Source: Strigamia acuminata
Lineage: Eukaryota; Arthropoda; Chilopoda; Geophilomorpha; Linotaeniidae
Length of the DNA: 64,000 nt
Assembly: GCA_949358305.1 (NCBI GenBank)
Contig: OX442314.1
Span: 43,408,581-43,472,580, forward strand
Reading direction: 5' to 3'
Part shown: positions 2,145 through 60,959 of the stretch, one piece after another
How the letters are laid out: the number at the start of each line of letters is the position of its first letter
How positions within the stretch are numbered: the first letter of the stretch is position 1
Translations under genes and position numbers: made by a program
The notes under the pieces: generated by a model
The model's input: the letters and a program-made list of their open reading frames with translations, nothing else
Databases searched by the model: none
What the model was told of the DNA's origin: nothing

Positions 2145-2999
2145 TTAGGTAAATAATTGATGCAGGTCTTTGCACTTCTCGACTACTTCACGACACACAT
2201 GGCATTTTAATTGAACGTCCACTTGGACTGCCTTCTTGGCACACGCTGCACAAACCATGTGTCCACACTTGTACGATATATTGCACTGATTTGTGCAACA
2301 AAGTTGGCAAGTAAACTCGTTGTGTTCGCGCGTAAGGACCAGGTTTGTGACCGATTATCGGCCACTACAACACGCCCACATGGCCCAGCCCAACCCCACC
2401 GGCCAGGTGGCGTTGACGGTTGAGGGATGGTGACCAGGATGACGTCATATCCGGTCACCAACCCCACAACCAATGGGAAGAGGTACTCTCGTACCCATGG
2501 TGCAAGAGTGGGGTATAAAAGGCCCAACATCCTGTTTCTGGCCAGAGTTCCACAGGAACGGTCCTGACCAACATGAGACCGGTCCACACTCTTGTTCACC
2601 ATGGTGTCACTTAGGGACTTGGCCGGTTTGCCAATCCCAGTACCGTGAGCGATTACCATGGGCCAAATGAACATCGACGTGACCACGCCGCACAACCAGG
2701 TTAACCCTAACCACGTGTGTGCCGCGTGTGGTCGCAGATCCACTGCAGCCATGCAGTCGGAGCTTAGGAGAGACACAAGATATCGACCCCTAGACAACTG
2801 AATAAAGGCCTAAAACCTCAAACACAGTCTCTTGTAGTCTCTTATCTATACGTGTCGAGCGTCCGGCGCTGTTTAGGCATTCCCGTGCCCGAACAATGTC
2901 CGTCCACTCTCACAGGTTTTCGGCCGCTGCAGTCAAGAAGTACACCAACTCAATGGCCAATACGTGCACTTCTGGAGCTAAGTTTGTGATACTACCACT
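2145..2999 (-). pseudogene. Proline-rich RING gene remnant, split by a solo LTR
   Basis: The minus strand of 2145-2345 and 2919-2999 matches the C-terminal half of the RING genes at 10402-10974 and 13225-13944: the helical segment before the RING, then the CGH...CAAC and CHVC zinc ligands and the tail to the stop codon. A 569-bp LTR (2346-2914) with a 4-bp duplication interrupts it between the helix and the RING. At 2999 homology ends abruptly against an AT-rich repeat, so the proline-rich N-terminus is gone. It faces the DEG/ENaC gene at 467-2013, as in the other modules. Confidence 0.75.
2346..2914 (+). mobile_element. Solo LTR, 569 bp, TSD GGTT
   Basis: It begins TGTGACC and ends CTCACA. 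It is flanked by GGTT on both sides (2342-2345 and 2915-2918). It contains a TATA-like GGTATAAAAG near 2511-2520 and an AATAAA near 2801. Homology to the RING gene resumes exactly on both sides. No internal retrotransposon region is present, as expected from LTR-LTR recombination. Confidence 0.8.
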
Positions 3000-4124
3000 G
3001 GAAAAAAAATCAGATTTACTCACTTGTAAAGATTTGTAAATATATAGGAAGATGGATTTTACAAGTTTGTAAATTAGATTTACAAACAATTGAAAATAAG
3101 TCTTTTCCAAACATATTTACAATCTGGAAAGTGACCCTTTCCGTGACTTTTTTTACAATAACTTTCCAAACATTTTCAATTGTGTAATTATAAAATTTCA
3201 TAATATATTTCCAATGTATTTCCAATATATTTCCAATAAAAAAATCTACTACCCTCCAATTTGAAAAATTTAAATACACATTTCCAATGTATTTCCAATA
3301 TATTTCCAATAAAAAAATCTACTACCTTCCAATTTGAAAAATTTAAATACACAAACTCAATTCTTTTTTTTTTAAGCTGTTTGATTTTTTTTTTCAAACA
3401 CCTTTCAACAATTAGTTTTCATTGATTAGATCACAATTTGCATGTTTTATTAACAGTTTTATTTAAATTTATTTTAATCTTATAGTTTTCTTTTTTCTTA
3501 CCTTGACCTCTGCTGGAATTGAACCTGGGACCCTTTGTTCTAAAGACCACTACCCTATCCACTAGGCTAGCATGACTTGTGATAATTAGATGTGTAACTT
3601 CCCATAAGTTATATAGCTAATTCTTTGTTAAATGGTTTTGATTTGAATTCTCTAACAGTCAATTTGGTATGTATTGTTTGATATATATTGTATTTTAAGT
3701 GTACGAGCCGGTTGTTTGTTTCATTAACGACGGTACGTTTCGTCGACGAAACACGTATTTTTCCGTCCCTGCGCCCTGATTGGTCGTTTCCATATTGTGC
3801 CCACACGTTCGAAATTGGTTCGTTTTAGGCATTATTTTCTGTTCAGATTTCAAAATTGATACAATTATCATGTTCCTGACTGTATTTTACCTTGTGCCTG
3901 TTACATTTCATGCATTTTCTTGCCTTTACATTATTTTTACAATCATTGTGAAATGACATATTTTCATTTCATACATTTACAACACATTTCCAACTTAAAG
4001 AAAACTGATTGGAAACATAAGACTTTGAACAAAAGATTTACAACTTATTGGAAATATTAGTTTTCATCTCTAGAATTTACTACACATTTCCAGAAGTTTG
4101 GAAATATGTAATTATTTCTTCCAG
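3000..4124. repeat. AT-rich dispersed repeat with TTTCCAA motifs
   Basis: A low-complexity AT-rich block rich in TTTCCAATATATTTCC-type motifs. Its ends are weakly inverted (CTGGAAAAAA at the left, TTCTTCCAG at the right). Two near-identical stretches of about 90 bp lie in tandem at 3210-3350. A related copy lies at about 37020-37067 and 38001-38150, where another element has inserted into it. No target duplication was found and no coding capacity is evident. Confidence 0.5.
3508..3580 (-). repeat. tRNA-like / tRNA-derived SINE segment
   Basis: The minus strand reads as a tRNA-like block: an A-box-like TAGCCTAGTGGATA followed about 35 nt later by a B-box GGTTCAATTCC. The acceptor stem does not pair convincingly. 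The block lies inside a repeat, so a SINE head or tRNA relic is more likely than a functional tRNA gene. Confidence 0.5.
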
Positions 4125-4192
4125 ATGGAACATTCAGGGTGGTGCCAAGAATGTTTTATAAGTTGTTTACAACATTCTTTGAGAGTGGGGTA

Positions 4193-4462
4193 TTTGCTTG
4201 CTACTGTTGTATGCGCTGATAAAGGGCAAAACCAAAGCGGTGTATGAAGAGCTTCTGCGATATGTAGTGAGCTTAAACTTCCTCCGTGCACCTGGCACAA
4301 CAATCATTACGGATTTCGAGACCAGCCTGCTGCCGGCGATTCACCGCAAGCTACCAACTGTATATCACCAGGGATGTTTGTTCCACTTCAGTCTGCCTCT
4401 CTGGAGAAAATTGCAAAAATTTTGCATGGCGAGACAGTACAAGGACCCGGATTTTGGGAGTG
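4193..4462 (+). pseudogene. MULE transposase fragment
   Basis: Frame +, from about 4198, matches the core of the FLYWCH-MULE transposase at 56697-57869: GKT-AxYExLLRY, then TIITDFET with the second catalytic Asp, then LLPAIH, and a GCxFHF segment. The N-terminal FLYWCH domain and the first catalytic Asp are missing. The homology stops near 4462, where kinase sequence begins in another frame. This is a dead fragment. Confidence 0.7.
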
Positions 4463-10401: not shown

Positions 10402-10974
10402 TTAGGCAAATAATTGACGGAGGTGTTTGCGCTTCGTGACTACTTCACGACACACATGGCATTTTAGTTGAATGTCCACTTGGACTGCCCTCTTTGCACA
10501 CGCTGCACAAACCATGTGCCCACACTTGCACGATATATTGCACTGATTTGTGCAACAAATCTGGCAGGTAAAGTCGTTGTGTTCGCGCGTAGGGACCAAG
10601 TTTTCTACTGCTGCAGTCAAGAAGTGCACTAACTCAATGGCCAATACGTGCACTTCTGGAGCTAAGTTTCTGATACTACGTAATCGCTGTTGCTCCCATA
10701 TTTTCTCCCAATCATCTGGTGGCGGCAATTGTGCAGGCGGTTGCGGCAATTGAGCAGGTGGTAGCGGCAATTGAGGAGGTAATGGCGGAAATTGAAAAGC
10801 TAAGCCACGCCGTATGCTGCGAGGCAGTTGCGGCAATTGAGCAGGTGGTGGCGGCAATTGAATAGCTAAGCCACGCCGTCTGCTGCGACGTGGCATTGGC
10901 AGCTCTGTGATGTCCATGGGGACACTCGGCGACCTTCTCCACCTTTCACCACGCGGTGGATCAGTGCGTGCCAT
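10402..10974 (-). CDS. Proline-rich RING-finger protein (copy B), 190 aa
   Basis: Single-exon frame, convergent with the channel copy that ends 82 bp away. Residues about 1-95 are Arg- and Pro-rich with repeated QLPxPPAQLP blocks. A helical segment follows (about 100-125). The C-terminal RING (about residues 137-180) has CQIC, CGHMVCAAC and CHVC spaced as a C3HC4 finger of the kind at the C-terminus of IAP/MDM2-type ubiquitin ligases. Such RINGs recruit E2 enzymes; activity here is inferred. All eight ligands are present, unlike in copy C. No substrate domain is recognised. Confidence 0.7.
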   Translation of the reverse strand: MARTDPPRGERWRRSPSVPMDITELPMPRRSRRRGLAIQLPPPPAQLPQLPRSIRRGLAFQFPPLPPQLPLPPAQLPQPPAQLPPPDDWEKIWEQQRLRSIRNLAPEVHVLAIELVHFLTAAVENLVPTREHNDFTCQICCTNQCNISCKCGHMVCAACAKRAVQVDIQLKCHVCREVVTKRKHLRQLFA

Positions 10975-11405
10975 CGCCGATCAGTTCGGAATAATTGCTT
11001 CGAATAAGTGTTAACTTTGAATAAATTTAAGTATTGTTCAAACCTAGCAATAAATTTTTAAGTTCTTGGATACAAAGTTTTGAAGAGATTGATGAAATCC
11101 AAAATGTCGTTTTGAGCAGTGAAATGAAGCACAACCACACGTCTTAAAAACAAGGGTAACACTATTTATTCTCTAAGCAAGAAAAGGGAAAAAAGGGGTT
11201 TTAAAATAAAATAACCCACTCGAGTTCCAAGAAAGTGAGGGGTCAAATACAAGTGACCCATACCAATTAAAGGGTTGGCATAGTAGGGTGAATGACACAC
11301 TCAAACATGTAACTACATGTAGCATAAATCACTAAAATAGGAGTTTATAAATAACAATGTTAAATCTACTCAAATTAAATAAACACTTGTTGAACCAAAT
11401 AAAAC
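10975..11405. other. Intergenic, nothing firm
   Basis: Upstream flank of the RING gene, AT-rich. It ends in CAAATAAAAC, the left target duplication of the element at 11406-12537. Confidence 0.4.
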
Positions 11406-12537
11406 GGGGCGCTGTACTGGGAGCAACATGCCTAAGGGCAACATTGCCCTTCGTCATGTTAAAAAAATGTCTAACAGCAACACTGCTCTTCGTAATATAA
11501 ATATAATGACCAAGAGCAACACCAGAAATTTTTGCATGTTGTCCTTAGGCATGTTAAATATGTTGCTAGTAGTTATGTAAATATAATGACCAAGAGCAAC
11601 ACCAAAAATTTTTGCGTGTTGCCCTTAGGCATGTTAAATATGTTGCTATTAGTCATGTAAATATAATGATCAAGAGCAACACCATAATTTTTTTTAATGT
11701 TTTAATTTTCTTGAATGACCAAGGAACTCTACATAAATAAACGGAGTGTGGACTGGACATTAGCTCGACAGTAAGGGCACGTTGCAGGTCTCCCCTCTGT
11801 GGGTGCAATGGTCATTACACGCTCGCTGCAGGCTGCGCAGAAGAATAAATGCGCGCAGGGCAGCATGGCGGTGTTTCTGTCAGTTAATAGACAAACCACA
11901 CAGAGGCCCTGTCCTGTGGCTTAATTAGCACCCTCATCATGCTCCTCATCCGATTCCACATGGGCTAAGTCTGCTGCGACGTCAACTACCTCGACGGACA
12001 CAATGTTCTCCCGGCGCGTAGCAGCACACGCAGCTGCCTGCTGGCCGTGGATAGTACCGCCAATGCTTGATGTCATGAGCATCATCCGGAGGAGAACATC
12101 TGGGATGCTCATCAAACCTGTTCGGTACTTCTCCGTCACGCGCAGCACCCTTCGATCGTCAGGACGTATTTCATCTTACGTTCTCGGCGGGAAATAACTC
12201 TTTCTAGCAGTTGTGTGTGCTCTCTCGCGTACGCGTGCTCCATCGACCTGAAGGTGTCAACAAACACCCATACGTTAGGGTGGGCAACACGACGTGACTT
12301 GATTCGCAATCCCAAATAATACAAATGTTGCTCTTAGTCATGATTACAACTGTTGCTCCACGTCATTTTCTTATAATGTCTAAGAGCAATCCCAAATAAT
12401 ATCGAATTTGCTCTTAGTCATTATTATACGCAACTACAACTGTTGCTCCACGTTATTTTTGTATAATGTCTAAGAGCAATGTTGCTCTTAACCAATTTTA
12501 GACCTAATTTCAACTGTTGCTCCCAGTACGCGGCAGC
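11406..12537. mobile_element. Mutator-like non-autonomous element, 1132 bp, 8-bp TSD
   Basis: Flanked by a perfect AATAAAAC repeat at 11398-11405 and 12538-12545. A paralogous stretch at about 48494-48514 reads straight through as CAAATAAAACATCC and serves as an empty site. Termini are imperfect inverted repeats sharing GTACTGGGAGCAACA. Subterminal regions carry short repeats with AAGAGCAAC or GTTGCTCTTA, including tandem units of about 110 bp at 11500-11690. The interior retains the decayed 3' end of a transposase gene with a RING domain. Confidence 0.8.
11729..12324 (-). pseudogene. MULE transposase C-terminus plus RING, decayed
   Basis: The minus strand encodes a segment HPNVWVFVDTFRSME...ER (12324 to about 12150) typical of the region after the catalytic core of MULE transposases. 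After a frame change it continues YRTGLMSIPDVLL and an acidic stretch to an in-frame TAA at 11921-11923. The same frame then continues with a RING: CVVC, PCAHLFFCAAC, SERVM, CPYC, ending LRLFM and TAG at 11729-11731. The finger is closely related to that at 57583-57984. The frameshift and stop make it non-functional. Confidence 0.7.
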
Positions 12538-13224: not shown

Positions 13225-13944
13225 TTAGGCAAATAATTGATGCAGGTGTTTGCACTTTGTGACTACTTCACAACACACATGGCATTTTAGTTGAACGTCT
13301 ACTTGGACTGCTTTCTTTGCACACGCTGCACAAACGATGTGCCCACACTTGTACGATATATTGCACTGATTTGTGAAACAAACCTGGAAGGTGAAGTCAT
13401 TGTGTTCGCGCGTAGGAATTAGGTTTTCGGCCGCTGCAGTCAAGAAGTACACCAACTCAATGGCCAATACTTGCACTGACGGAGCTAAGCTTCTGATGGT
13501 ATGTAATCGCTGTTGCTCCCATACCTCCTCTAAATCGTCTGGTGGCGGCAATTGGGCAGGCGGTTCCGGCAATTGTGCAGGTGGTTGCGGCAATTCTGCA
13601 GGCGGTTGCGGCAATTGTGCAGGAGGTTGCGGCAATTGAGCAGGTGCTTGCGGCAATTCTGCAGGCGGTTGCGGCAATTCTGCAGGCGGTTGTGGCAATT
13701 GAGCAATTAAGCCACGCCGTAGGCGGCGAAGCAGTTGCGGCAAATGAGGCGGAAAGTGAAAAGCTAAGTTACGCCATATGCCGCGAGGCAGTTGGGACAA
13801 TTGAGGAAGTGATGACGGAAATTGAAAAGCTAAGCCACGCCGTATGCCGCGAGGTGGCATTGGCAGCTCTACGATGTCCATGGCGACACTCGGCGATCCT
13901 CTCCGCCTTTCACCACGTCTTGGAGCTGGTTGTGTGCGTGACAT
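13225..13944 (-). CDS. Proline-rich RING-like protein (copy C), 239 aa, first zinc ligand lost
   Basis: Paralogue of 10402-10974 with a longer proline region: about nine repeats of QLPQPPAxLP-type units between residues 65 and 130. A helical segment and C-terminal RING follow. The finger keeps CGHIVCAAC and CHVC, but the first CxxC reads FQVC, so the first zinc ligand is Phe. The CxC before the His also becomes YKC. The zinc site is probably impaired. The frame is otherwise open. It is either a decaying copy or one selected for something other than E2 binding. Confidence 0.6.
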   Translation of the reverse strand: MSRTQPAPRRGERRRGSPSVAMDIVELPMPPRGIRRGLAFQFPSSLPQLSQLPRGIWRNLAFHFPPHLPQLLRRLRRGLIAQLPQPPAELPQPPAELPQAPAQLPQPPAQLPQPPAELPQPPAQLPEPPAQLPPPDDLEEVWEQQRLHTIRSLAPSVQVLAIELVYFLTAAAENLIPTREHNDFTFQVCFTNQCNISYKCGHIVCAACAKKAVQVDVQLKCHVCCEVVTKCKHLHQLFA

Positions 13945-13979
13945 TACGGATCAGTTCGGAATAAGTGCTTCGAATAAGT

Positions 13980-37067: not shown

Positions 37068-38000
37068 GGGTCTTGGTTTTGCCAGCTTTTTAATGTGCCA
37101 GCCTTTTCGATTTTAGCCTTTTTTATTATGATTATTTTTTTTTTTTGGTTTTATTGTGCCAGCTTCTGGCAGTGCCAGCCTGTTTTTTGCCAGCTTTTTA
37201 TTTTTCAGCCTTTTTTTTAATAATGTACTGTTTTTTTAAATAAATAGCATTTAATGAAATAATTAATTTAAATTTGCCAGCCTTTAATATTCAGCCCTTT
37301 TTTCCCTGATAGCAATAAATGAAATAATTAATTTTAATTTGCCAGCCCTTAAAATTTCAGCCCTTTTTTTTCCTGATTACCTAAAGGATTAACTTCTTCT
37401 AAAACATTTTATACACAGTACTGATAACTTGTCTACAAGACGGCTCAACCTTATCTTTTAGGAAGTTGTTTGCACATGAGGAGCAGAAGGTGTTCCGCTT
37501 GTTAGTCAGGCAAATGGAACATTAGTTTGATTCATGTTCCGATTCTTCTGCTTCCAAAAACCAAAAACCTAACTTAACCAGACCTAACCTAACCTAACAC
37601 AACCTGGAGGCCGCCCTCGTCTGCGTGCAGCCAGGAGAGGTTGCAGGGGTTCTTGAGTAACCACAGGCAATGTGAGTTTGATTTCCCCTTCGACGCGTGA
37701 TGGGTCAGCATTTTCCACAACCCTTTCGTCAATCCGTGGATGGCAAAACTCTACGGAATCAATTCCTGCGACGTTCGTGTGACGTTCGTGAAAAGGCTTT
37801 TTCCAAAAAGGCTGGAAAAAAAAGGGCCGGCAAATATAAGGCTGGCAAACAGATAGGCAGGAAAATTCTAAATATTTTATTAATTTAATCAATAATAAAA
37901 AAGGCCAAATCCAAAGAGGCTGAGTTGAAAGTTTGAAAATAAAAAAAAGGCTAAAATCGAAAAGGCTGGCAAGCTATAAGGCTGGCAATGCTGTGCACCC
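37068..38000. mobile_element. Foldback-type element with GCCAGCC repeats, 933 bp
   Basis: Imperfect inverted ends share TGCCAGCCTTTTCGATTTTA about 40 bp from the tips (GGGTCTTGG at the left, reverse of TGCACCC at the right). Several internal TGCCAGCCTTT units face each other. Runs of A flank both sides (37061-37067 and 38001-38008), a possible target duplication. It interrupts a copy of the AT-rich repeat also seen at 3200-3350. It lies in the intron between the two last channel exons. No transposase is seen. Confidence 0.6.
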
Positions 38001-48860: not shown

Positions 48861-49092
48861 TCCGGGATTTCTATCTAAACAAATACTTACCTGTTGTCTA
48901 GATAGTTCGCAAGTGAGATGCCGTGGATAGGTCTTATACTAAGCTGGCTGTAAAATGGTGTCTAGGGGTATTTTTAGGAAATGAGAACAGCAGTTTGAGT
49001 TGAATAAAAATGACAAATGAATTTTATTTGATCGAAAATTACAATATAAATTTATAAATGTAGGAAATATAATAACTGAAGGAAGTTATGAA

Positions 49093-50517
49093 GGGGTGCC
49101 GTTCCAACGGCGAATCGTCCAAGGGCGAATCTGGCCATTCGGACGAATGGCGAATTTCGACTTTATTCTGTCCAAAACAGTCCCAACGGCAAATTTCTCC
49201 CAATTCAGCATTGGGACTGCTTTTGGACCTTTCTAATGGCGAATTGGTAAACGATTTGCCATTGGAAACGCAAAAACGTGACCAATGGCGAATATGTGTG
49301 TGCTGAATTTCGCCATTGGAAACGCAAAAACGTGACCAATGGCGAATATGTGTGTGCTGAATTTCGCCATTGGAAACGCAAAAACGTGACCAATGGCGAA
49401 TATGTGTGTGCTGAATTTCGCCATTGGAAACGCAAAAACGTGACCAATGGCGAATATGTGTGTGCTGAATTTCGCCATTGGAAACGCAAAAACGTGACCA
49501 ATGGCGAATATGTGTGTGCTGAATTTCGCTATTGGAAAGGGTTTTGCGTTTCCAATAGCGAATATGTGTGTGCTGAATTTCGCCATTGGAAACGCAAAAA
49601 CGTGACCAATGGCGAATATGTGTGTGCTGAATTTCGCCATTGGAAACGCAAAAACGTGACCAATGGCGAATATGTGTGTGCTGAATTTCGCCATTGGAAA
49701 CGCAAAAACGTGACCAATGGCGAATATGTGTGTGCTGAATTTCGCTATTGGAAAGGGTTTTGCGTTTCCAATAGCGAATATGTGTGTGCTGAATTTCGCC
49801 ATTGGAAACGCAAAAACGTGACCAATGGCGAATATGTGTGTGCTGAATTTCGCCATTGGAAACGCAAAATCGTGACCAATGGCGAATATGTGTGTGCTGA
49901 ATTTCGCCATTGGAAACGCAAAAACGTGACCAATGGCGAATATGTGTGTGCTGAATTTCGCTATTGGAAAGGGTTTTGCGTTTCCAATGGCGAATTGAAA
50001 TTGAACGAGCCGAGTGTGTATTTAAAGTGCTTGTGAGTCACGAGCGAACGATTTGGTTTGTTTAAACTGGTCGACTGATTTATTTAGAAAGTTCTGCTGT
50101 TTAAATAAGACGAATTAAACAGAACGTTGAGTGGACGTGATTCCCTAAAGCAAACGAACTGTGGACGTGATGCCAGGCGAGAGGTGACCGGATGTCACAG
50201 TGCTAAAGCCAATATTGGCCTAATATTGGTAGGCTACAAGAACGTATTGCTAGCTGATCGATTTTTACACATGCCGCATTTGCGCGATCGAATACAGCTA
50301 AACACCCGCCGTATTTGGGCGATCGAATACAGCCAAACACCCGCCGCATTTGCGCGATCGAATACAGCTAAACACCCGCCGTATTTGGGCGATCGAATAC
50401 AGCCAAACACCGGCCGTATTTGGGCGATCGAATGCGGCGGATGTTTGGCTGCATTCGATCGCGCAAATGCGGGCAGTGTTTGGTCGGTTCTCAGGTCTTA
50501 AAAAAATAAATAATAAT
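49093..50517 (+). repeat. Left inverted terminal arm of the MULE
   Basis: Outer 150 bp contains CCAACGGCGAATCGTC. A 54-bp array follows (about 49250-49990), three times interrupted by a palindromic GCTATTGGAAAGGGTTTTGC variant. A single-copy stretch and 35-bp GATCGAATACAGC units (about 50287-50470) complete it. The 54-bp length (18 codons) keeps several frames open on both strands; these are not genes. Confidence 0.85.
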
Positions 50518-51228
50518 TGAAATTGAACGAGCCGAGTGTGTATTTAAAGTATTTAAAGCAAACGAACTATGGACGTGATGCCAGACGGATGTCACAGCGC
50601 TAAAGCCAATATTGGCTATAATTGGTAGGTTACAAAAACGTATTGCTAGCTGACTCCGACTGGTCCGCAACACACGCAACACACGCTGCTGGTTTTAATT
50701 CAAAGTTATCTTTATTTGTAATTCTAACTGGTTATGTAGTGCAATCGTCAGCTCCTATTGGCTGTTTAAAATAAAACGTTATTGAGACGTTCTCGTCTCC
50801 TTCCCATTCTCGTGTTCGTCTCGTCTCGTGTTCCTCAGGAACCCGAAAATTCTACAATTCATTAGTTCGAGACCAGCAGGACATGAACAGTGTTACACAA
50901 CAATTTAGAACCCAAACGGACTCAGCATCGAACGGAATCACATGTGCGAGGTCAAGTTAAACTTTCCATTCGATATCGATGCGAGTAACCTTGTATGTAT
51001 ATAAATATAACGCCTCACGCAGCACGTAAAACGTATTTACACGACATTTTTACTGAAATAAAAGTTTGAAATTAAACAAAAAGCAATTTGAGGCACAAAA
51101 CTGTGCATTTAAGTGCAAAAATTCATACTTTTGGCTTAAATTTTGAAACTTGTATAAACAATGCCGTGTGGGTCCAAAAAACGCTTAAATAAATGAAAAA
51201 TGAATTTTAAAATGAATTTTTGTTACAG
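50518..51228. other. MULE interior, no gene seen
   Basis: Begins with a partial second copy (50520-50660) of the arm's single-copy stretch (GGACGTGATGCCAG, CCAATATTGGC). After that the sequence is unrelated and non-coding by eye. Confidence 0.45.
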
Positions 51229-51333
51229 GCATCGAGTAACAGCACCGGACATTACGTTTACTTCACCAAACATAAAACGAAGATAGTACGACGGACAACG
51301 CACCCGAAATTTATGGAAGATACATATTTTTAA
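51229..51333 (+). CDS. Possible terminal exon, unknown gene, inside the MULE
   Basis: After a TTTTTGTTACAG acceptor an open stretch of 35 codons (34 residues, starting ASSNSTGHYVYFTKHKTK) ends at a TAA and is followed by AT-rich DNA. If real, it is a host exon carried as cargo. The family is not recognised. Confidence 0.3.
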   Translation, partial: ASSNSTGHYVYFTKHKTKIVRRTTHPKFMEDTYF

Positions 51334-54116
51334 TATTGTGTAAATTATTATGTCTATACATTAATGCTTCTTTTTGGAAAGGAGATCGAAAAAACCGTTA
51401 ATAAAACTTCTGTTATTCTATATTATGGAATGGATTTTTTTGTGTTAATAAAATAAATTTTAGAAATTTTTCTAATATTTGAATTAATAATCATTTGGAT
51501 TGAAATGAGCACGGTGCTTTTGTAGAAGCGCGCAAAGCATTGCGGAGTACCTGCTCTGCACGCAGGAGCAGCAAGCGGTACAGCCAATCTAGCTGCCTGA
51601 TTTAACATTGTTGTCCCAAGAGCAGCAATCGGAAATGTAGAAAGCGGCGCCTAATCGCTTCAAACAACACGTTTTTGAAAAGTTTAATTCTTTTCATCAC
51701 ATATTGTCTATGTTATTATTCATTAAGCAGAGCCGGCTTGTGGGTCTTGCAAAAAATGTTTTTATTTTGGCAAAGTATTTTTTATCCCAAAAAGTTCATT
51801 TGTAAAGTAGATTGTCTCTAAAAAGAGTCTATTGCAGCACATGATAATGCATTTATTTGCCTAAAAATGTCTAAAAATGCATTTATTTTCGCCAGGTCGC
51901 TTACTACGACAAGACTGAAACGTTGCAAATGAGATTGCACAAATTTTGACAATTTTGCATTAAAATGACCCAAAAAAAATGCATTTTTACACGCAGATTG
52001 CAATTTGTCTGTCGAAAGAAACGTTTTCTAGTGGTTTCTGCAGATGATGATGTTAATCTGAGCCAGCCATTTGATCTCTCTCGTTTACAATGCTACATGA
52101 AATACGGATTGCCGAAACGGGACTCAATTTTAAGATACAATCGGACTCTCCAACCCAGCTGGGTTTTGGAACACTAAAAAAACAAAAGCCGCATTGAACT
52201 TTACAAGTGTAGGGCCATCCACGTATTTGAAATGTTTCGCAACACCAAAATATAGTAGGCACTTGATTCAAAATTTGATCGTGAAGATGGTGATGAGGAA
52301 ACTGAAGTGTTTCATTATTGAACATTGCAATTATTGCACTAGAATGCAGAGAATTCTCCGCATTCATCGAGGTTTGATAACCGATCGAATGATTTGATTT
52401 TTTGACGTTTTTGATGGATTTAAATGTGAAAAAAAGTTATTTTTGGTTGGAAAATATCGATTTGAGCTCGAATTTTGATGAATTTGTTATGAAAATGTGA
52501 ATTTTTGATGGTTTTTAACACTTTTAACCGATTTACATTCTGATTAATGTGGATACGTTTAGGAATTGTTCCATTTATGGTTTGTTTTGGCCAATCATGC
52601 GCTGTTTAGTTTCGTACTGACAATTTTGCATTAAAATAGCACGAAAAAATGCATTTTTACACGCAGATTTCAATTTGTAAGTTTGCTTACTGTTAAAACT
52701 ATTTATAGGAAAAGGCAAACTGTGTAAGATTTGTATTACTTTTCATTTTAATTTTTTTTTCTCAAATATACTTGTAGAAAGTACGATTGGGAGGACAGCA
52801 GTGCCTGCATATGGACATGATCAAGATCTATTTTGAAAACGAATAATTATACAAAAAATATTTAATATTTTTGAAAAATTGTACTTCCTTATTTTAAATT
52901 TGATGTATTTTTCTTTCAATTGAATAAAAACATATATTTTAATTTTTTCATCGATTTTTTCATTCCAACATGATTGACGGCCGGAAAATGAAGGCAAAAT
53001 TGTCTATTTTAATAAAAATAAAAACATGATCAAATGTTGAAGAAAGAACTAGCTGCTAAGCTGATTGAAAAAAAAAGAATTTGAAACAAACGTCGAAGAA
53101 GTAGACACGATAAGAGCATCGTCCGATTTCGTGGGAAATGAGACGCGGCATCGAAAAGTGATATCCTCGTAAGTTGCGAGGCAGGAAAGCCACGCGTAAT
53201 GAACCTCGATTCAAGAAACGACCTTAAAGCCGAGACAGCAAATTACGTGAATTAATTATAACCGTTGACTAAATGCAATTAAAAGTTTTATTCAACATAT
53301 TGGAACGTATTGGAACACGTATTGCAACCAGTATTAGACACTCTGGATAACTTTTTTAATGTTTTTGAGATGGCGGAAATGTAAAACCAAGATGAAACGA
53401 TCATCGCTGTTCAAATATTCGTTCTAATGAACACGAACCAGATGTCGGAGACGGACATGCATTTGGTCATCATTGACACAATTAGAGAGTCTCGTTTTAA
53501 AGGTGAAACGCAATAAATTGGCGGAATTTGTCATACTTATACTGAATTGGGAAATAAGACACGTGGACGACGAGAAAACAACACGACTTGGGACCATAGC
53601 TTTTGGATGAGAACAAAAAACCATTCGACTATTTTCCGACAGTTTCGAGCACAGGACACATGTTTTATTGCAGTTTATCCAGTAGGAGGAGGTTTACCGC
53701 TCCCGTGGGCGACACAGACTTGCACATGCAGTTCTATAAAAATGAAGAAACGACGATAATTTTTGATAACATCACAGAATAAAAATTCGTGTTTTTATTT
53801 CGAATTGAAAATGTAGCGGTCGGTTTATTTTGACGATCAAATTGAAGGCAGCAATTGCAGGCTTTTGCCAATCGGTGACAAGTATTTCTTCGACTTGGAA
53901 ATCCACATGAAAATCTTGGAGAGTTGTATAAATGAGAGAGAAATTGCCGGGTAGTTGGCAAAATTAAAAATGTAAAAGTCAGTGCAGAAATTCGACGGAG
54001 AAATTAATATTTTCCCGAGAGTTGATAATTCCACTGATTTATGAATACATCAGCACATTTTTGAATTCGTGGAAGATAAATTAGAGATAAACAAAATATA
54101 TCGATCTCGTTCAGTT
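51334..54116. other. MULE interior, unidentified cargo
   Basis: No complete gene. A segment with AATGCATTTTTACACGCAGAT is present twice (about 51977 and 52650). A short acceptor-bounded frame at about 52779-52845 and frames at 53547-53759 have no recognised family. Confidence 0.35.
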
Positions 54117-54340
54117 TGTGACGATTCTACTTTTGGTTGAATTATAAGCCATTAAACGAGATAAATCGGTCGGAACAAGACATTGCTAAACCTAACAATA
54201 ACCTAACCGAGATAAGCTACGAAATATGTGCAACGTGAATAAATAACCAGAATAGCAAATAACTTACGGTTTTCCATGTTTATTATCAATACAACTGGTT
54301 CTGGGTTCTGGGCATGTGTAAACATAACCGATCGTTTTTG
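54117..54340 (-). repeat. Partial relative of the 1755-bp LTR
   Basis: Starts TGTGACGATTCTACTTTTGG and follows the outer end of the 20249-22003 LTR with substitutions and small gaps (ATAACCTAACCGAGATAAGC, ATAACTTACGGTTTTC). Similarity fades by about 54340 and no right end with a duplication was found. It is an older, truncated or diverged copy. Confidence 0.6.
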
Positions 54341-56147
54341 ACGTTGCAATCGAATTCTTTCGAAGGTCGCCATGTCGTTTTTTCACTGTTCGATTGAATC
54401 TACGTTGGAACGACGTATCGTGGGCGGACATGAGTGTATCATGGTTTTGATTATACAATACGAATGTAAATATAATCAGGTATGTGTTTATTTTGTAAAT
54501 AAACTTTTAACACGAATAAACTTAAAAATGCATTGATTTGCCTAAAAAAGGTCTAACTTGCCTAAAAAAAGGTCTTTAATGCATGAAAATGTTTATAACT
54601 GCTTAAAAAAAATTTGTCGTTATTAAACCTGTTACTTTCTCTCCTAATTTTATGTTAAATGGGCCACACATAGTCTTTGCACTCGTTCCCGAAGCCTTCC
54701 AAGCCGGCCTCGCCATCAAACCGTATCAAACATTTTTTGCAAAGCAAAAGGTAGTTGTCACGTGATTTTTTTTTTATTTATTTATTTTTTTATAATATTT
54801 TTTTTTTTTTTTTTTTTTTTAAGGAATTTAAGTGAAGTCACATTATTCAGCAATAGTCATTCTGTCCAAAAGACTATTTATTTCTGTACTAAGCCGTGGA
54901 ATAGTAGGAAGTTTTCATTAGAAGCAACTCGCGCATTTCAATTCTTTTTAAGGTAATGACTTTGTGACCACAATCTTTTGCTATGCATAAAATGTTTGAT
55001 ACGGTTTGATTGCGAGGCCGGCTTGGAACAAAAAAATATATTTTTAGACTTTAAAATATAACTTAGCTAAAATATTAGACGCTTTTTAAAAAAAAACTTA
55101 GTCTATATTTTGAAAACTTATATTTTAAAGTTGTTAGCAATGAGAGAGCGGCTGACAAGAGAATTGACAACTGTTCTGGTTGGAAAATGTGCACAAACTG
55201 ATTTATTCGAGCTCTTTACAATTAAAAAGTAAACAAAACAATTCTCGAACTTAAAATGTTACGACTTCTTCAATTGGTTGGCTTGACGCGACGTCATCAA
55301 ACGACACCGACAGGTGCGCTACGTGGCAGGTGTTCGCCCCAGGCGCAAGGTCATCGCACAGACGTGAGGTCATCCTATGGCCTCACAAAAGTCTAAAAAT
55401 ATATTTTTTTGTTTCATTTCTTCTGGTAGAACTTACTGCTGCTATTCTCTTGGTTATTTTCTACTTTAGTATAAAGAAATTCTTACAATTCATCCAGAAT
55501 TGTATGTTAACTAAATTTCACGTCATTATGACGTAATTGTAAACTCTGCCAACGGAATTTTTTCTTTAAAGATCATAGGAAAAGAAATAAAAAATTTCTC
55601 TCATAGCTTTGAAATAACCATGTTAAATCAAAATAAATTAGGCGCATTCAATTCTAAATTACCAAATTCCGATTTCAAAAACTTGATTACAGAATCGGTT
55701 TTTAACTTTTAACGAGTTAAACAACTAAACATCTGTAATGCAGGGAAGCATTACATATTAGACTTCTAAATCCTGTCCCTCTGTCCCTAAATAAAACACC
55801 GAAATAAAAGAAGATACAGTAATTAAATAAAAAATAAAATTTTTGGCCAAAATAGAGCAACAACAAACCAAATCCCGCCAAAATTCGATCAAAAATGATC
55901 AAATTCGCGTAAGATAGCTCAACAACAAAAATATAAAAATAAATAATACTGTAATTTGTATTAACGACAATCAAAAATCTAATAGTTTTGCATTTTCCGC
56001 TACAAAGCCGTCGCCGGTTGCTAGGAGACAGCGAGACGGCTGCACTGTAATGCGCGTTGATTCGTTCGTAAATTGGTTGTTTTTTTTTGTTTGATACATT
56101 TAATCGGAAAACTTTTTGATTTGATTTGATTTATTGAAAAGAGGAGC
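54341..56147. other. MULE interior with small inverted repeats, no gene
   Basis: Holds a 330-bp inverted-repeat unit at about 54697-55027 (ends CCAAGCCGGCCTCGC and its complement, with an internal T-run). A neighbouring inverted repeat built on AAATATATTTTTAGACTTT lies at about 55028-55411. A stretch at 55615-55720 repeats directly at 59228-59345. No coding region is supported. Confidence 0.45.
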
Positions 56148-56255
56148 CAGGGCCGTTTCTACCTATGAGGCGAAGAGGCGGCCGCCAGGTGGCCATGCCG
56201 TGGTAAGTAACTTTACCAAGGCCGCCTCTTTGCCTCATAGGTAGAAACGGCCCTG
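56148..56255. mobile_element. hAT-type MITE, 108 bp, TSD AGAGGAGC
   Basis: Perfect 8-bp duplication AGAGGAGC at 56140-56147 and 56256-56263. The 36-bp terminal inverted repeats start CAGGGCCGTTTCTACC and differ at one position. The CAGGG start, the 8-bp duplication and the lack of coding sequence fit a hAT MITE. Confidence 0.85.
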
Positions 56256-56696
56256 AGAGGAGCGAAAAGTGTATCTTAATTATGCGTTTTTAAGATTTTT
56301 CATTCGAAATTCGAAAGTTAGATTACATTGCATCTGCCATGCGGCTAAAAGTTATTCATTTAAAATGGGTACATAACCTTTTTTAAGGTTATTTCAAAGC
56401 TATGAGAGAAATTTTTTATTGCTCTTCCTATGACCTTAAAGGATTTTGAAGAGATTTGAATTTTTTTCCATCGTTTTTTGAATAAAACTCATTTTTTTGC
56501 GGTTTTTTTTAAAAATAAAATTGAATTTTTCATCAATTTTGAATTAAATTGAGTTTTTAAAAAAATGTTTTTGAATCAAATTGAATTCTCAAAAGATTTA
56601 CATGAGGCTTTGTGATGTTATTTTGTAAATTTTTAATTTATTAATTCTTTATTAATTCTTTTAATTTTACAGCGGATATCAATATCAAATACAGAC

Positions 56697-57600
56697 ATGC
56701 AAGCCACTATCATCGAAGGATTCCGAAAGAATTCTAAGCTGTATTTAATAGATGGACTACTCTATAGGCGCGATTCCTCAAAGGACAATAAAGCATACCT
56801 GTCGTGCAATGACAGAGCTTGTAGTGGAAGGGCGATTTTGCAAACAATCACAAATGAATCACTAATTTCAAAAGAACATAATTTAGCACATCTGGATGCA
56901 CACGTAGATGTAGCAAACAGGCAGTTTGCAGTTGTCGTTAAAACACGTGCTGAAGAAGAACCTTCAGTTAGCTTACGCACCATTTACCATGCCGCTGGTT
57001 TAGAGATCCCTGAAGCAACGACATCATTCAGGTCTGCGGAGTCGGGAATGGCAAAGAGGCGGCGTCTGAATTTCCCAGTATTGCCTGACACTTCAGAGGA
57101 GTTAGCCCAGCTGTTACCCGAAATAATGCATGGCCAAACGATTGGAGAAGAGATTTTTTTTCGAGAGCGACTGGTTGCGGGTGATGTAGAGATGTTAGTT
57201 TTCGCAGGGCCTCGAATGGTCACTGCCGCGACGAATGCTACGCTTTACCAGATGGATGGGACATTTACAGTTGTTCCGTTACCTTATTACCAACTGTTCA
57301 CCATATTCGCCATTACGAACGGATTTGCACTGCCTGTTCTGTTTGTGCTTATGACAGGCAAGACCCAGGCTGCGTACGAGACTTTGCTACGGTATGCAAA
57401 GAGCCTTAACTTAATGCGAGCTCAGGACCTAACCATTATCACCGACTTCGAGACAGGCTTGCTGCCAGCCATTCACCAACAGCTGCCTAATGCCCGGCAC
57501 CACGGCTGCTACTTCCACTATTGCCAGGCTCTCTGGAGGAAAGTTCAAAGTCTGCGAATGATAAGAGAATACCGAACTGTGGTTGAGATCAAAAGCATCG
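56697..57600 (+). CDS. FLYWCH-MULE transposase, truncated after the core
   Basis: The exon starts after a TTTTACAG acceptor at about 56672. Residues 1-80 form a FLYWCH zinc finger (LYLIDGLLYRRD, YLSC...CSGRA, H.DAH). Residues about 180-280 form the MULE DDE domain: MDGTF (first Asp), then TGKTQAAYETLLRY, TIITDFET (second Asp), LLPAIHQQL and a GCYFHYCQALW zinc-like segment. The usual several hundred residues after this are missing. From about 57583 the transposase frame runs into a low-complexity Cys/Thr repeat while a neighbouring frame opens into a RING. The enzyme would cut and move the element, but this copy looks internally deleted. The third catalytic acid is not identifiable. Confidence 0.78.
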
Positions 57601-57984
57601 ATTGTTGTACCCGCACCGATTGTTGTACCCGCACCGATTGTTGTACCCGCACCAATGCCTGTTGCTCGGCCACGCCCAAACACGCGCGCCCGTGTGCGAG
57701 ATGCAAATGTAGTACCACCTGTAGTTGCGCCACGAGATGCAAATGTAGTACCACCTGTAGTTGCTCCACGAGATGCAGACGACATGAACTGCATAATATG
57801 TCTAACTGCCAGAAAGAATGCCATTTTTCTGCCATGTGCACATGGCCACTGCTGCTTGCCTTGCAGTGAGCGGGTGATGCGTGGAGAATATACGGATGCC
57901 GCGGGAGTTCAGCGTGTGGGTAGAAGACCTCATTGCCCCTTCTGCCGTGGTCGCGTGGTTAGCGTGCTCAGAATTTTTCTCTAA
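57583..57984 (+). CDS. RING-finger domain encoded at the 3' end of the MULE transposase locus
   Basis: A 133-codon frame, +1 relative to the transposase. It has VVPAPI repeats and two ARDANVVPPVVAP-like repeats, then a C3HC4 RING: CIIC, PCAHGHCCLPC, SERVM, CPFC, ending LRIFL. The finger is the same family as that in the 11406-12537 element (PCAHLFFCAAC, SERVM, CPYC). Separation from the core by a short low-complexity repeat and a frame change suggests an internal deletion fused them here. Ubiquitin-ligase activity is inferred from the fold only. Confidence 0.72.
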   Translation: MRSKASIVVPAPIVVPAPIVVPAPMPVARPRPNTRARVRDANVVPPVVAPRDANVVPPVVAPRDADDMNCIICLTARKNAIFLPCAHGHCCLPCSERVMRGEYTDAAGVQRVGRRPHCPFCRGRVVSVLRIFL

Positions 57985-59372
57985 GATGTCATTTTCTTTT
58001 TTTACATAATAAACATTATATTCCAATATTTTAAAACCGCAATAAACAATTTAAAACTGCTAGAATTCATTCGAAATTGGAATAAAAACATGAAATTAGT
58101 GCATTATTTGCCTCTTTAACTTCCTTGACCGCAACACTCCGAAGTGCTTCAAATTTCCCACTCACTTTGTAAGCGTTTTAAATACACACTAGGCTCGTTT
58201 GAGAAAATGATTTGTCCGTGTCCTCGTTCACTTTTCGATCTGCGCGACGGTCGACAGTCGATGGCTGACGGCCGTCGGACGTCGTACGTCGACTGTCGAC
58301 CGTCAACTGTCGAATGTCGTGGCCGTCAGCTGAAGACTGTCGCGTCCGTCGGATGACAACAGCTGACGGTCAATCATGCTTTATTAGTTCGTTAGTTCAT
58401 TTTTAACTTTGCTAAATGTTTTTTCATTCTTGTACAGTCACATCTTATTATTTCATTCGGTTTTGTTCCAATCAATAAATAAATAAATACTCTTAATTTA
58501 AGAAAAAAAATTCAATATTATATTTATTCGCATTAAATTACAATTTGTATGCAAATTAAACAATTTTGCTAGATGAGCAAAAAGACACTCAGATGTGCGA
58601 TCACATACTATTTGCTATGGCGTATTGGCGAAGGAAATGCTTTTAACGACGATGGATTTAATTAAGCGTTGTTCAACAGCAAAAACAATTTTACAATGCT
58701 GGCATATGTGGATCTGTGTGGATGTTAAAGCAAATATCGTGTGTTATGTGAAAAATAGAAAATTACAGCAAATAATCCAAAATACCAGCATCCAAAAATT
58801 TTAAAAAATTAAAAAAAAAATAGCCGAAAATTATCAAAATAACCTGAAGTAACACCAAATAACAACAAAAAAATTACCGAAAATAACAGAAAATAACAGA
58901 GAATCATCAAAAATTACCAAAAAAATAGAAAAAAAATTGACGGTTTTAGGATTTAGTGTATTATTTTGGTGGTGATAAGTTGGCAGTAAAAACCTTAGCG
59001 GTTTGGAATGGGTGGTGGTGTTGTGCTATGCTATGCAGCTAAAACAGCTTTACATGACACTTTACAATAATTAAATGCACATATTTAAAATATTTAAAAA
59101 AAATTATAAGTACCGGTATACATTATAAATACACCATAATTTGTGATAAAAGATGTTGTAGATGTGTATGTTTTGTGATGTTAAACGACTTTTGAATGCA
59201 GCTATTGTGTACTTTTTAAAAATCTTCATAATAACCATGTTAAATCAAAATAAATTAGGCGCATTCAATTCTAAATTACAAAAATCCGATTTCAAAAACT
59301 TGATTACAGAATTGGTTTTTAACTTTGAACGAGTTAAAAACCGATAATCAAGTTTTTGATTATCTATTTAAA
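57985..59372. other. MULE interior, palindromic GC-rich cluster
   Basis: At 58235-58370 repeated GTCGAC/GACGGTC words form several overlapping hairpins (for example CGTACGTCGACTGTCGACCG). The remainder is AT-rich, with the direct repeat of 55615-55720 at 59228-59345. No gene is recognised. Confidence 0.45.
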
Positions 59373-60918
59373 TTATTATTTATTTTTTAAAGACCTGAGA
59401 ACCGACCAAACACTGCCCGCATTTGCGCGATCGAATGCAGCCAAACATCCGCCGCATTCGATCGCCCAAATACGGCCGGTGTTTGGCTGTATTCGATCGC
59501 CCAAATACGGCGGGTGTTTAGCTGTATTCGATCGCGCAAATGCGGCGGGTGTTTGGCTGTATTCGATCGCCCAAATACGGCGGGTGTTTAGCTGTATTCG
59601 ATCGCGCAAATGCGGCGGGTGTTTGGCTGTATTCGATCGCCCAAATACGGCGGGTGTTTAGCTGTATTCGATCGCGCAAATGCGGCATGTGTAAAAATCG
59701 ATTGGTACTGTTGCGGATCAGCTAGCAATACGTTCTTGTAGCCTACCAATATTAGGCCAATATTGGCTTTAGCACTGTGACATCCGGTCACTTCTCGCCT
59801 GGCATCACGTCCACAGTTCGTTTGCTTTAGGGAATCACGTCCACTCAACGTTCTGTTTAATTCGTCTTATTTAAACAGCAGAACTTCCTAAATAAATCAG
59901 TCGACCAGTTTAAACAAACCAAGCAAACCAAGCACTTTAAATACACACTCGGCTCGTTCAATTTCAATTCGCCATTGGAAACGCAAAACCCTTTTCAATG
60001 GCGAAATTCAGCACACACATATTCGCCATTGGTCACGTTTTTGCGTTTCCAACGGCGAAATTCAGCACACACATATTCGCCATTGGTCACGTTTTTGCGT
60101 TTCCAACGGCGAAATTCAGCACACACATATTTGCCATTGGTCACGTTTTTGCGTTTCCAATGGCGAAATTCAGCACACACATATTCGCCATTGGTCACGT
60201 TTTTGCGTTTCCAATGGCGAAATTCAGCACACACATATTCGCCATTGGTCACGTTTTTGCGTTTCCAATGGCGAAATTCAGCACACACATATTCGCCATT
60301 GGTCACGTTTTTGCGTTTCCAATGGCGAAATTCAGCACACACATATTCGCCATTGGTCACGTTTTTGCGTTTCCAATGGCGAAATTCAGCACACACATAT
60401 TCGCCATTGGTCACGTTTTTGCGTTTCCAATGGCGAAATTCAGCACACACATATTCGCCATTGGTCACGTTTTTGCGTTTCCAATGGCGAAATTCAGCAC
60501 ACACATATTCGCCATTGGTCACGTTTTTGCGTTTCCAATGGCGAAATTCAGCACACACATATTCGCCATTGGTCACGTTTTTGCGTTTCCAATGGCGAAA
60601 TTCAGCACACACATATTCGCCATTGGTCACGTTTTTGCGTTTCCAATGGCGAATTTCAACATGCACATATTCGCCATTGGAAGCGTAAAAACGTTCCCAA
60701 TGGCGAATTTTACATTAAAAACAAATCTCCCACATTCGCCCTTGGAAACAGAAAATATCTTTCCAATGGCGAATGTGGGAAATAAAACATTCCTGCACTC
60801 AAAAAACGTTTCCAATGGCGAATTTAATAAAATTTGCCATTGGAAACGTCAAAATAGGTTTCTAAAGGCGAATTTCCAAAATTCGCCCTTAGACGATTCG
60901 CCGTTGGAACAGGTACCC
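59373..60918 (-). repeat. Right inverted terminal arm of the MULE
   Basis: Mirror image of the left arm: 35-bp units (about 59420-59690), a single-copy stretch, a 54-bp array of about 13 units (59968-60660), then about 250 bp of diverged units (GGCGAAT/ATTCGCC pairs) to the tip. It is slightly longer than the left arm because of the outer part. Confidence 0.85.
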
Positions 60919-60959
60919 GTTATGAATTTAACGGTTAAATTTAGGGAGAGAAAAGGAGA

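Follow-up and report, generated by a model that had tools for sequence, protein, structure and literature searches.

A stretch at 56697..57984 of the DNA analysed here reads, on the plus strand, as a FLYWCH-MULE transposase followed by a RING finger, which raises the question of whether a Mutator transposon has made a ubiquitin-ligase-type domain part of its own transposase and, if so, what that domain would do in transposition. The window (the whole 64,000-nucleotide stretch that was analysed) corresponds to C1:43408581-43472580 of the 237.5-Mb genome of the centipede Strigamia acuminata. The first-pass annotation had described a FLYWCH-MULE core with the RING immediately behind it, and this order stands, with a MULE domain (PF10551) at 57249..57527 (Pfam E=4e-12) and a C3HC4 RING (PF13920, zf-C3HC4_3) at 57781..57960 (Pfam E=8.7e-10), but the RING is not in frame with the core and the FLYWCH-like finger is sub-threshold.

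The window copy and its intact relatives

The N-terminal 301 residues of the transposase, encoded at 56697..57599, are residues 21-321 of the full-length transposase P0001, and they include the sub-threshold FLYWCH-like zinc finger at 56730..56882 (coordinates transferred from P0001 residues 32-82). Next comes a 139-aa frame (stop-to-stop ORF, 57565..57984) made up of a Pro/Val-rich repeat linker, the RING, and a C-terminal tail. The stop-to-stop ORFs of the core (56637-57869) and of the RING (57565-57984) lie in different frames, and a deletion junction is found at 57595..57600, where, relative to a full-length copy on C6, ~572 bp have been lost (a length taken from alignment coordinates) and the frame is shifted. 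D207, D270, and E394 occupy invariant columns across eight aligned rows and are taken as the putative DDE catalytic residues; the two Asp codons are present in the window copy (57255-57257 and 57444-57446), and the Glu is deleted. The window copy thus lacks the third catalytic residue and is unable to make the fused protein.

The core and RING lie within an element of 11,826 bp on the plus strand (49093..60918), with ends GGGGTGCC...GGTACCC, which is a deletion derivative of a ~12.3-kb full-length element and is flanked by the 8-bp target-site duplication GTTATGAA at 49085..49092 and 60919..60926. Its left foldback arm (49093..50658) carries a 54-bp minisatellite (49254-49995) and 35-bp repeats (50273-50433), and its right arm (59363..60918) carries the 35-bp repeats (59456-59686) and the 54-bp minisatellite (59992-60680); the inverted match of 49247-50526 to 60713-59363 is 88.9% over 1366 columns with 101 gaps. 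Both arms thus consist in part of 54-bp and 35-bp tandem arrays, as in foldback elements, whose long inverted repeats are built of short tandem repeats. The C6 full-length copy (8471981-8484236, ~12.3 kb) has its own 8-bp duplication, GTAAAAGC, and the deletion derivative occurs again on C10, flanked there by a different, 9-bp duplication, GTTTTTAAT, which shows that the derivative has been mobile in its own right. Two copies of the derivative (window and C10) and one full-length copy (C6) therefore bear different target duplications, and these lengths of 8, 8, and 9 bp at three sites, together with the inverted arms, agree with the ~8-11-bp duplications and terminal inverted repeats of MULEs. 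On C1, two more copies of the derivative match the window without a difference over 3417 bp, and terminal repeats were not seen at their expected ends. The C6 copy is also longer than the window by ~1.34 kb at window position 54755-54761, which reflects an insertion or a deletion.

Used as a query against the same genome, the RING frame gave 82 matches, four of which end open frames of 639-640 aa; three of these four loci encode an identical 639-aa protein, with 0-1 differences in 1917 nt. In a Pfam scan, the protein of one intact locus (P0001) contains the sub-threshold FLYWCH-like finger, the MULE domain (45.9 bits against a cut-off of 27.6, which places it among the MULEs), and the RING at residues 573-632 of 639. 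The FLYWCH match of P0001 has E=0.0016 and 19.0 bits against a cut-off of 23.6, that of P0002 has 16.4 bits, again sub-threshold, and for L033, L036, and L052 of the sublineages described below there was no Pfam match to FLYWCH at E<=0.1. The full-length ORFs with core and RING that the first-pass annotation predicted are therefore found, in these four loci (sublineage A) and as single frames in sublineages B, D, and E. The window copy would be non-autonomous, depending on intact copies to move it in trans as a passenger.

Besides the main element, the window contains six further MULE or MULE-RING remnants. The MULE derivative claimed at 11406-12537 was borne out on the minus strand at 11729..12333, where C-terminal MULE fragments of sublineage C (11921..12333; 26-40% identity, E 4e-11 to 4e-7) precede a RING with its C-terminal tail (11729..11920; Pfam E=1.2e-14); this RING is 44% identical to that of the main copy. 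A MULE core fragment nearest to sublineage A (50-56%) lies on the plus strand at 4103..4443, with no RING found beside it. The others, all on the minus strand, are a linker plus RING (10402..10980, a derivative), a linker plus decayed RING (13225..13950), and a RING (2148..2309) of sublineage E, and a decayed linker plus RING of sublineage D (37399..37739).

RING-bearing MULEs across the genome

Pfam searches of the genome gave at least 118 MULE and at least 146 RING matches. A RING lies within 2 kb downstream on the same strand for 17 of the 118 MULE matches, against an expected mean of 0.10 and a maximum of 2 in 1000 shifts of the RING positions; adding 23 RINGs found by tblastn and widening the radius to 6 kb left the count at 17, each RING lying 0.53-1.7 kb downstream of its MULE on the same strand. 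The adjacency of MULE and RING is not due to chance. These 17 pairs comprise eight near-identical copies of sublineage A, three of B, five of D, and one (L035) that stands apart, and they are not independent because eight of them are the near-identical A copies.

Single-frame fusions of core and RING recur across diverged sublineages. In sublineage B, L019 has both in one 609-aa frame with 45% identity to A, with a Trp in place of one zinc-binding Cys of the RING. Sublineage D includes single frames at L033 (759 aa) and L032 (589 aa), together with L036, in which the RING is in a separate frame, and the broken copies L034 and L037. Sublineage E, identified among opened MULE loci without a Pfam RING, has single frames at L052 (783 aa) and L050 (608 aa); its RING was recognized by motif and is not among the Pfam matches. 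Sublineage C (window 11729-12333, L022, and others) is represented by fragments only. The loci opened were hand-picked, 20 RING loci and 28 further loci, and tblastn found MULE remains at 8 of the 20 RING loci, which had been drawn from 129 without a nearby MULE Pfam match. Frames resembling LTR-retrotransposon polyproteins were seen by eye beside MULE-RING loci at L010:1-1767 and L026:3049-6846, and that in L026 may stand between a B RING and its core.

Several derivatives have kept the two ends of the protein rather than its middle. In L076, L077, and L078 the core is largely deleted and the N-terminal part and the RING are retained, and, taking these with L066 and L089, the N-terminal finger region is kept along with the linker or RING while the catalytic core is partly or wholly lost; no RING was found in the frame of L089. 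These derivatives could possibly encode finger-RING proteins of the element or be plain deletion products.

Class, selection and ancestry of the RING

The RING resembles the C-terminal cIAP1/MEX3-type RINGs. It is a C3HC4 RING at the end of the protein that scores above the PF13920 cut-off of 27 bits in sublineages A (35.8), B (33.1), D (40.6), and C (54.3), but not in E. By phmmer, the sublineage C RING matched 27 PDB chains, among them MEX3C, CBL, TRIM25, and cIAP1, and the sublineage A RING matched a single chain, TRIM2, weakly. In cIAP1, Phe616 and Arg614 contact donor ubiquitin from the other half of the dimer, in trans (PMC6349121), and in an alignment to 6hpr these residues correspond to positions +11 and +9 after the last Cys. 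An aromatic residue occupies +11 in 23 of 26 MULE-linked RINGs and Arg or Lys occupies +9 in 20 of 26 (23/27 and 20/27 when L088, dropped by the search pattern, is counted). Both tail positions are kept in A, C, C2, D, and L035, +11 alone in B (+9 in 0/3), and neither in E (0/3 rows). Host RINGs of the same genome have the aromatic at +11 in 5/5 and the basic residue at +9 in 3/5, and because the tail is shared with them, it marks the RING class and not the transposon family. RINGs of IAP and MEX3 look, by eye, to be present among the RING loci of the genome, as would suit an animal; spliced leaders were looked for with the RF00198 model, whose control gave no signal, and with an exact 22-nt pattern, and no match came up. 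Of 39 distinct RINGs, a set that takes in host RINGs, 37 have an Arg at the linchpin place, which we take to be right after the last cysteine of the RING. This Arg has been given weight in catalysis (PMC12326332). L088, with the family finger 1.25 kb upstream, lacks the linchpin Arg as well as the +9 and +11 residues. Among the sublineages, the ubiquitin-contact positions are kept except in B (partly) and E.

As to how these counts were made, the 26-row set required the Arg by its search pattern, so the Arg was recounted without this requirement, dropping tails outside 8-20 residues. L088 was lost by the pattern, four rows (L019, L025, L027, and L028) are decayed, and two (L050 and L078) duplicate counted rows exactly; among the 26, L067, L068, and L071 are deemed linked only through the likeness of their RINGs to that of L066, the L023 locus is without a core, and L026 has only the end of the B linker region.

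RING and core have diverged at like rates, with dN values of 0.53 and 0.50, respectively, between A and B, 0.19 and 0.24 between L033 and L036, and 0.03 and 0.05 between L033 and L032. For diverged copies the RING dN/dS is 0.10 (A-L023), 0.15-0.18 (four D pairs), and 0.06 (one E pair), and the A-L024 RINGs differ by 8.0 changes over 117 nonsynonymous sites versus 32.0 over 36 synonymous sites. The ratio, computed pairwise by NG86, is defined for 19 of 23 RING pairs, two of them not MULE-linked, with dS saturated in the other four and values of dS >1 unreliable; it lies at 0.06-0.57 in 18 of the 19 and reaches 2.9 in L026-L013, the other young pairs ranging from 0.19 to 0.57. These ratios indicate purifying selection on the RING. 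The like rates and the low dN/dS fit a RING and core that move together as one functional protein, with single copies decaying afterwards.

The first-pass annotation had taken the RING for the ancestral C-terminal domain of the family's transposase. The single frames in A, B, D, and E agree with this for the family, but the view does not extend to FLYWCH-MULEs at large, since those of Rotaria and others are without a RING, so the RING belongs to this clade. Even within the clade, members without a RING, which that annotation had named as evidence against its view, are found in part: L048 (570 aa; L042 is the same minus the N-terminus) and three aphid gene models, which means that the RING is not needed in every member of the clade. 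The Bemisia gene model has just a Cys-rich stretch with no clear RING. Whole-protein and A/B-alignment queries gave the same set of 18 database relatives, all with PF10551 and 8/18 with PF04500 in precomputed annotation; that annotation contained no recognizable RING accession for the 18, the search having scored the best 7996 candidates by shared words. The RING part alone as query gave 23 candidates, none at E<=0.001, and none of 70 pattern matches in viral contigs was confirmed.

In the core tree, built from 23 of 33 collected rows with the C-terminal parts of RING-bearing rows removed, the six RING-bearing rows fall together in a clade with 100/100 support, along with the RING-less L048 and, on long branches, aphid P0008 and whitefly P0010; another five MULEs of this genome, all without a RING, group in a second clade outside the RING-bearing one. 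A single RING-bearing clade is not rejected on the core data, nor positively supported (p-AU 0.242). This pattern suggests that the RING was present early in the clade and then lost in some members, or that it was gained twice. Swapping of RINGs among sublineages was considered, as the core joins A with C2 and not B and the RING joins A with B, and was set aside because the conflict falls short of significance (core order tested with the RING data, p-AU 0.243). Ten more distant rows were left out of the core tree beforehand (L043, L044, L045, L046, L049, L051, L053, L054, L055, and L059). Some of these have, or by eye seem to have, other domains: L046 (C1:13499786 and five more matches of the same 1075-aa frame length) carries an Ulp1/C48 peptidase (E=1.9e-12) within the frame of its MULE domain; L045 (C5:5334687 and eight more matches, 1083 aa) is a MULE with FAR1-like (below cut-off) and SWIM matches, and its end, cut by the locus boundary, looks C48-like by eye and is not reported as such by Pfam; and L043 (C13:801800-805500) is a 790-aa MULE frame with a C-terminal Cys-rich stretch that is PHD-finger-like by eye, with no Pfam PHD match at E<=0.1.

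RINGs unlinked to MULEs, likewise named in advance as evidence against an ancestral RING, do exist, in Q/N-rich and Nup98-GLEBS frames, but the short RING tree (53 usable columns) gives no direction of transfer and does not resolve the order of the A, B, C, Q/N, and Nup98-linked RINGs. L020 and L021, on C11, are Q/N/G-repeat-rich frames ending in a RING that resembles that of sublineage A, with several such RING matches on the same contig; no MULE core was found in these 7-8-kb loci. L014-L018 (C3:16331496, C9:10452780, C5:11377506, C5:11915155, and C18:73092) share a 382-aa frame ending in a RING, which falls with sublineage C in the RING tree (89/85), and L014 contains a Nup98 Gle2-binding (GLEBS) motif (Pfam E=3.9e-21). 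About 1.7 kb is shared at 98-100% among the five, L014 and L015 being the same over 6.7 kb, and neither a MULE core nor clear terminal repeats were found in these 7-kb loci.

Possible role of the RING and known systems

We think it rather probable that the family encodes a transposase with an in-built, probably dimeric E3 ligase that acts on the transposase complex and nearby chromatin, a RAG1-like arrangement built independently. In this family of Phantom-like Mutator transposons, one predicted polypeptide combines an N-terminal FLYWCH-like DNA-binding finger, a DDE (MULE) core, and a cIAP/MEX3-type RING at its extreme C-terminus. From its conserved positions the RING is predicted to be an active, dimeric E3; it would homodimerize via the C-terminal tail, as cIAP1 does, and its main substrates would be the transposase complex itself and adjacent DNA-bound proteins. 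Ubiquitylation might limit or time transposase activity, and the RING might also alter chromatin at the terminal repeats in aid of excision and repair. The RING of RAG1 ubiquitylates RAG1 itself and histone H3 (PMC3949197), and, with RAG1 as the nearest substrate precedent, we consider self- and neighborhood-ubiquitylation at the terminal repeats most likely.

The main rival to such self-directed activity is action on the host, which the first-pass annotation had envisaged alongside a role in transposase turnover. The RING would then ubiquitylate small-RNA or chromatin repressors that are brought to the element to silence it, and the transposase would escape repression. Selection that keeps the RING through repeated divergence would fit, and the five scattered copies in which this type of RING follows a Nup98 GLEBS motif give a hint that RINGs of the kind can be directed against proteins of the host; however, no likely substrate-binding region was seen beyond the FLYWCH-like finger and the variable linker, and no host target was identified, so that we regard this as unlikely. 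That RINGs of this class with C-terminal tails dimerize (PMC6349121) and that sublineage E has drifted from the E3 consensus could reflect a dimerization or zinc-folding module that helps to assemble the transposase complex and is not an active E3, but the positions for ubiquitin transfer (linchpin Arg in 37/39, tail +9/+11) are kept in A, C, C2, and D, which makes a purely structural role quite unlikely.

Other explanations would give the RING no part in transposition, or the locus no part in transposons. MULEs are known to acquire host gene fragments (PMC6446971), and a fragment caught between the inverted repeats in Pack-MULE style, in a chance position, would account for core and RING being out of frame in the window copy and for RING frames without MULE elsewhere in the genome (L020, L021, and L014-L018). 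The single frames in four loci and in B, D, and E, the like rates of core and RING, and the purifying selection on the RING all count against capture, which is largely refuted and in our judgment very improbable. Long intact frames under purifying selection would also be expected of a domesticated host gene family, but the locus has the marks of a transposon, with foldback terminal repeats, duplications of 8-9 bp at each of three sites, scattered copies that are nearly identical, and derivatives with internal deletions; for sublineage A, the one with mapped ends, the target duplications refute domestication, and for the fused locus in general we hold it to be extremely improbable.

A wider extension of the preferred reading, a RAG1-like E3 within the transposase, is offered tentatively and is in our view rather doubtful. 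The Mutator transposase would be a dimeric ubiquitin ligase, independent of RAG1, that has been kept through a long radiation, and this type of RING would be an exchangeable effector, found also behind a Nup98 Gle2-binding motif, where it could target a host nuclear-pore or mRNA-export partner. The core-less finger-RING derivatives would then be element-specific ubiquitin ligases, serving as repressors or in anti-silencing.

For comparison with other MULEs we relied on the survey of Dupeyron et al. 2019. In its description of the Ghost clade (aphids, spiders, and cnidarians), the most complete element, from Myzus cerasi, has a 420-bp RING ORF and a truncated 1120-bp transposase ORF (PMC6446971). 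Ghost thus resembles the family described here in having a RING finger near a MULE transposase, but in Ghost the RING has an ORF of its own and neither a TIR nor a TSD was found (PMC6446971), whereas here several sublineages encode the two in a single frame and one of them has mapped TIRs and TSDs. The same source lists arthropod Ghost with SWIM and one Phytophthora MULE with a C3HC4 ring finger in its table (PMC6446971). Aphid P0008 and whitefly P0010, which join the 100/100 clade of the RING-bearing rows, are database proteins not identified as Ghost. There is also a likeness in overall architecture to the Phantom group, tabulated with 8-10-bp duplications and, in aphids, a minisatellite after the ORF (PMC6446971), and to its member Tm1 of root-knot nematodes, with FLYWCH and MULE, foldback-like inverted repeats, and 9-bp duplications (PMC3169594). 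The element here shares with them a MULE transposase, in this case with a sub-threshold FLYWCH-like finger, the foldback-like inverted repeats, and a similar duplication length; on the other hand, the 496-aa Tm1-A transposase is described with FLYWCH, MULE, and an NLS only, and no "ring" words occur in the main text of that paper (PMC3169594).

MULEs of plants are also known with an Ulp1 domain. Those with an OTU domain, listed in a table (PMC6446971), and those with Ulp1/C48 likewise carry a domain of the ubiquitin or SUMO pathway, but they would remove tags, whereas the RING described here would add ubiquitin. The likeness to cIAP1 lies in a RING at the extreme C-terminus with a basic residue at +9 and an aromatic one at +11 of its tail (PMC6349121); unlike in cIAP1, no other IAP domain was seen and the RING is fused to a transposase. 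RAG1 and Chapaev have a RING in the same protein as the transposase or transposase-derived enzyme, with E3 activity in RAG1 (PMC4411706, PMC3949197), but they belong to a different superfamily, with the RING N-terminal in RAG1 and after the Chapa domain in two Chapaev subgroups (PMC4411706), whereas here it does not precede the core but occupies residues 573-632 of 639. Searches of open-access full texts for MULE, Mutator, or MuDR transposases with RING brought up no paper describing a fused FLYWCH-MULE-RING family; such a fused, selected, and recently mobile family looks to be a new form, a separate RING ORF in one aphid MULE being already known. RINGs within a transposase are described for RAG1 and Chapaev, and one aphid MULE has a RING ORF next to it; another superfamily with a selected RING fusion would show convergent use of ubiquitin by mobile DNA and would open directly the question, so far tied to V(D)J recombination, of what a ubiquitin ligase does for transposition.
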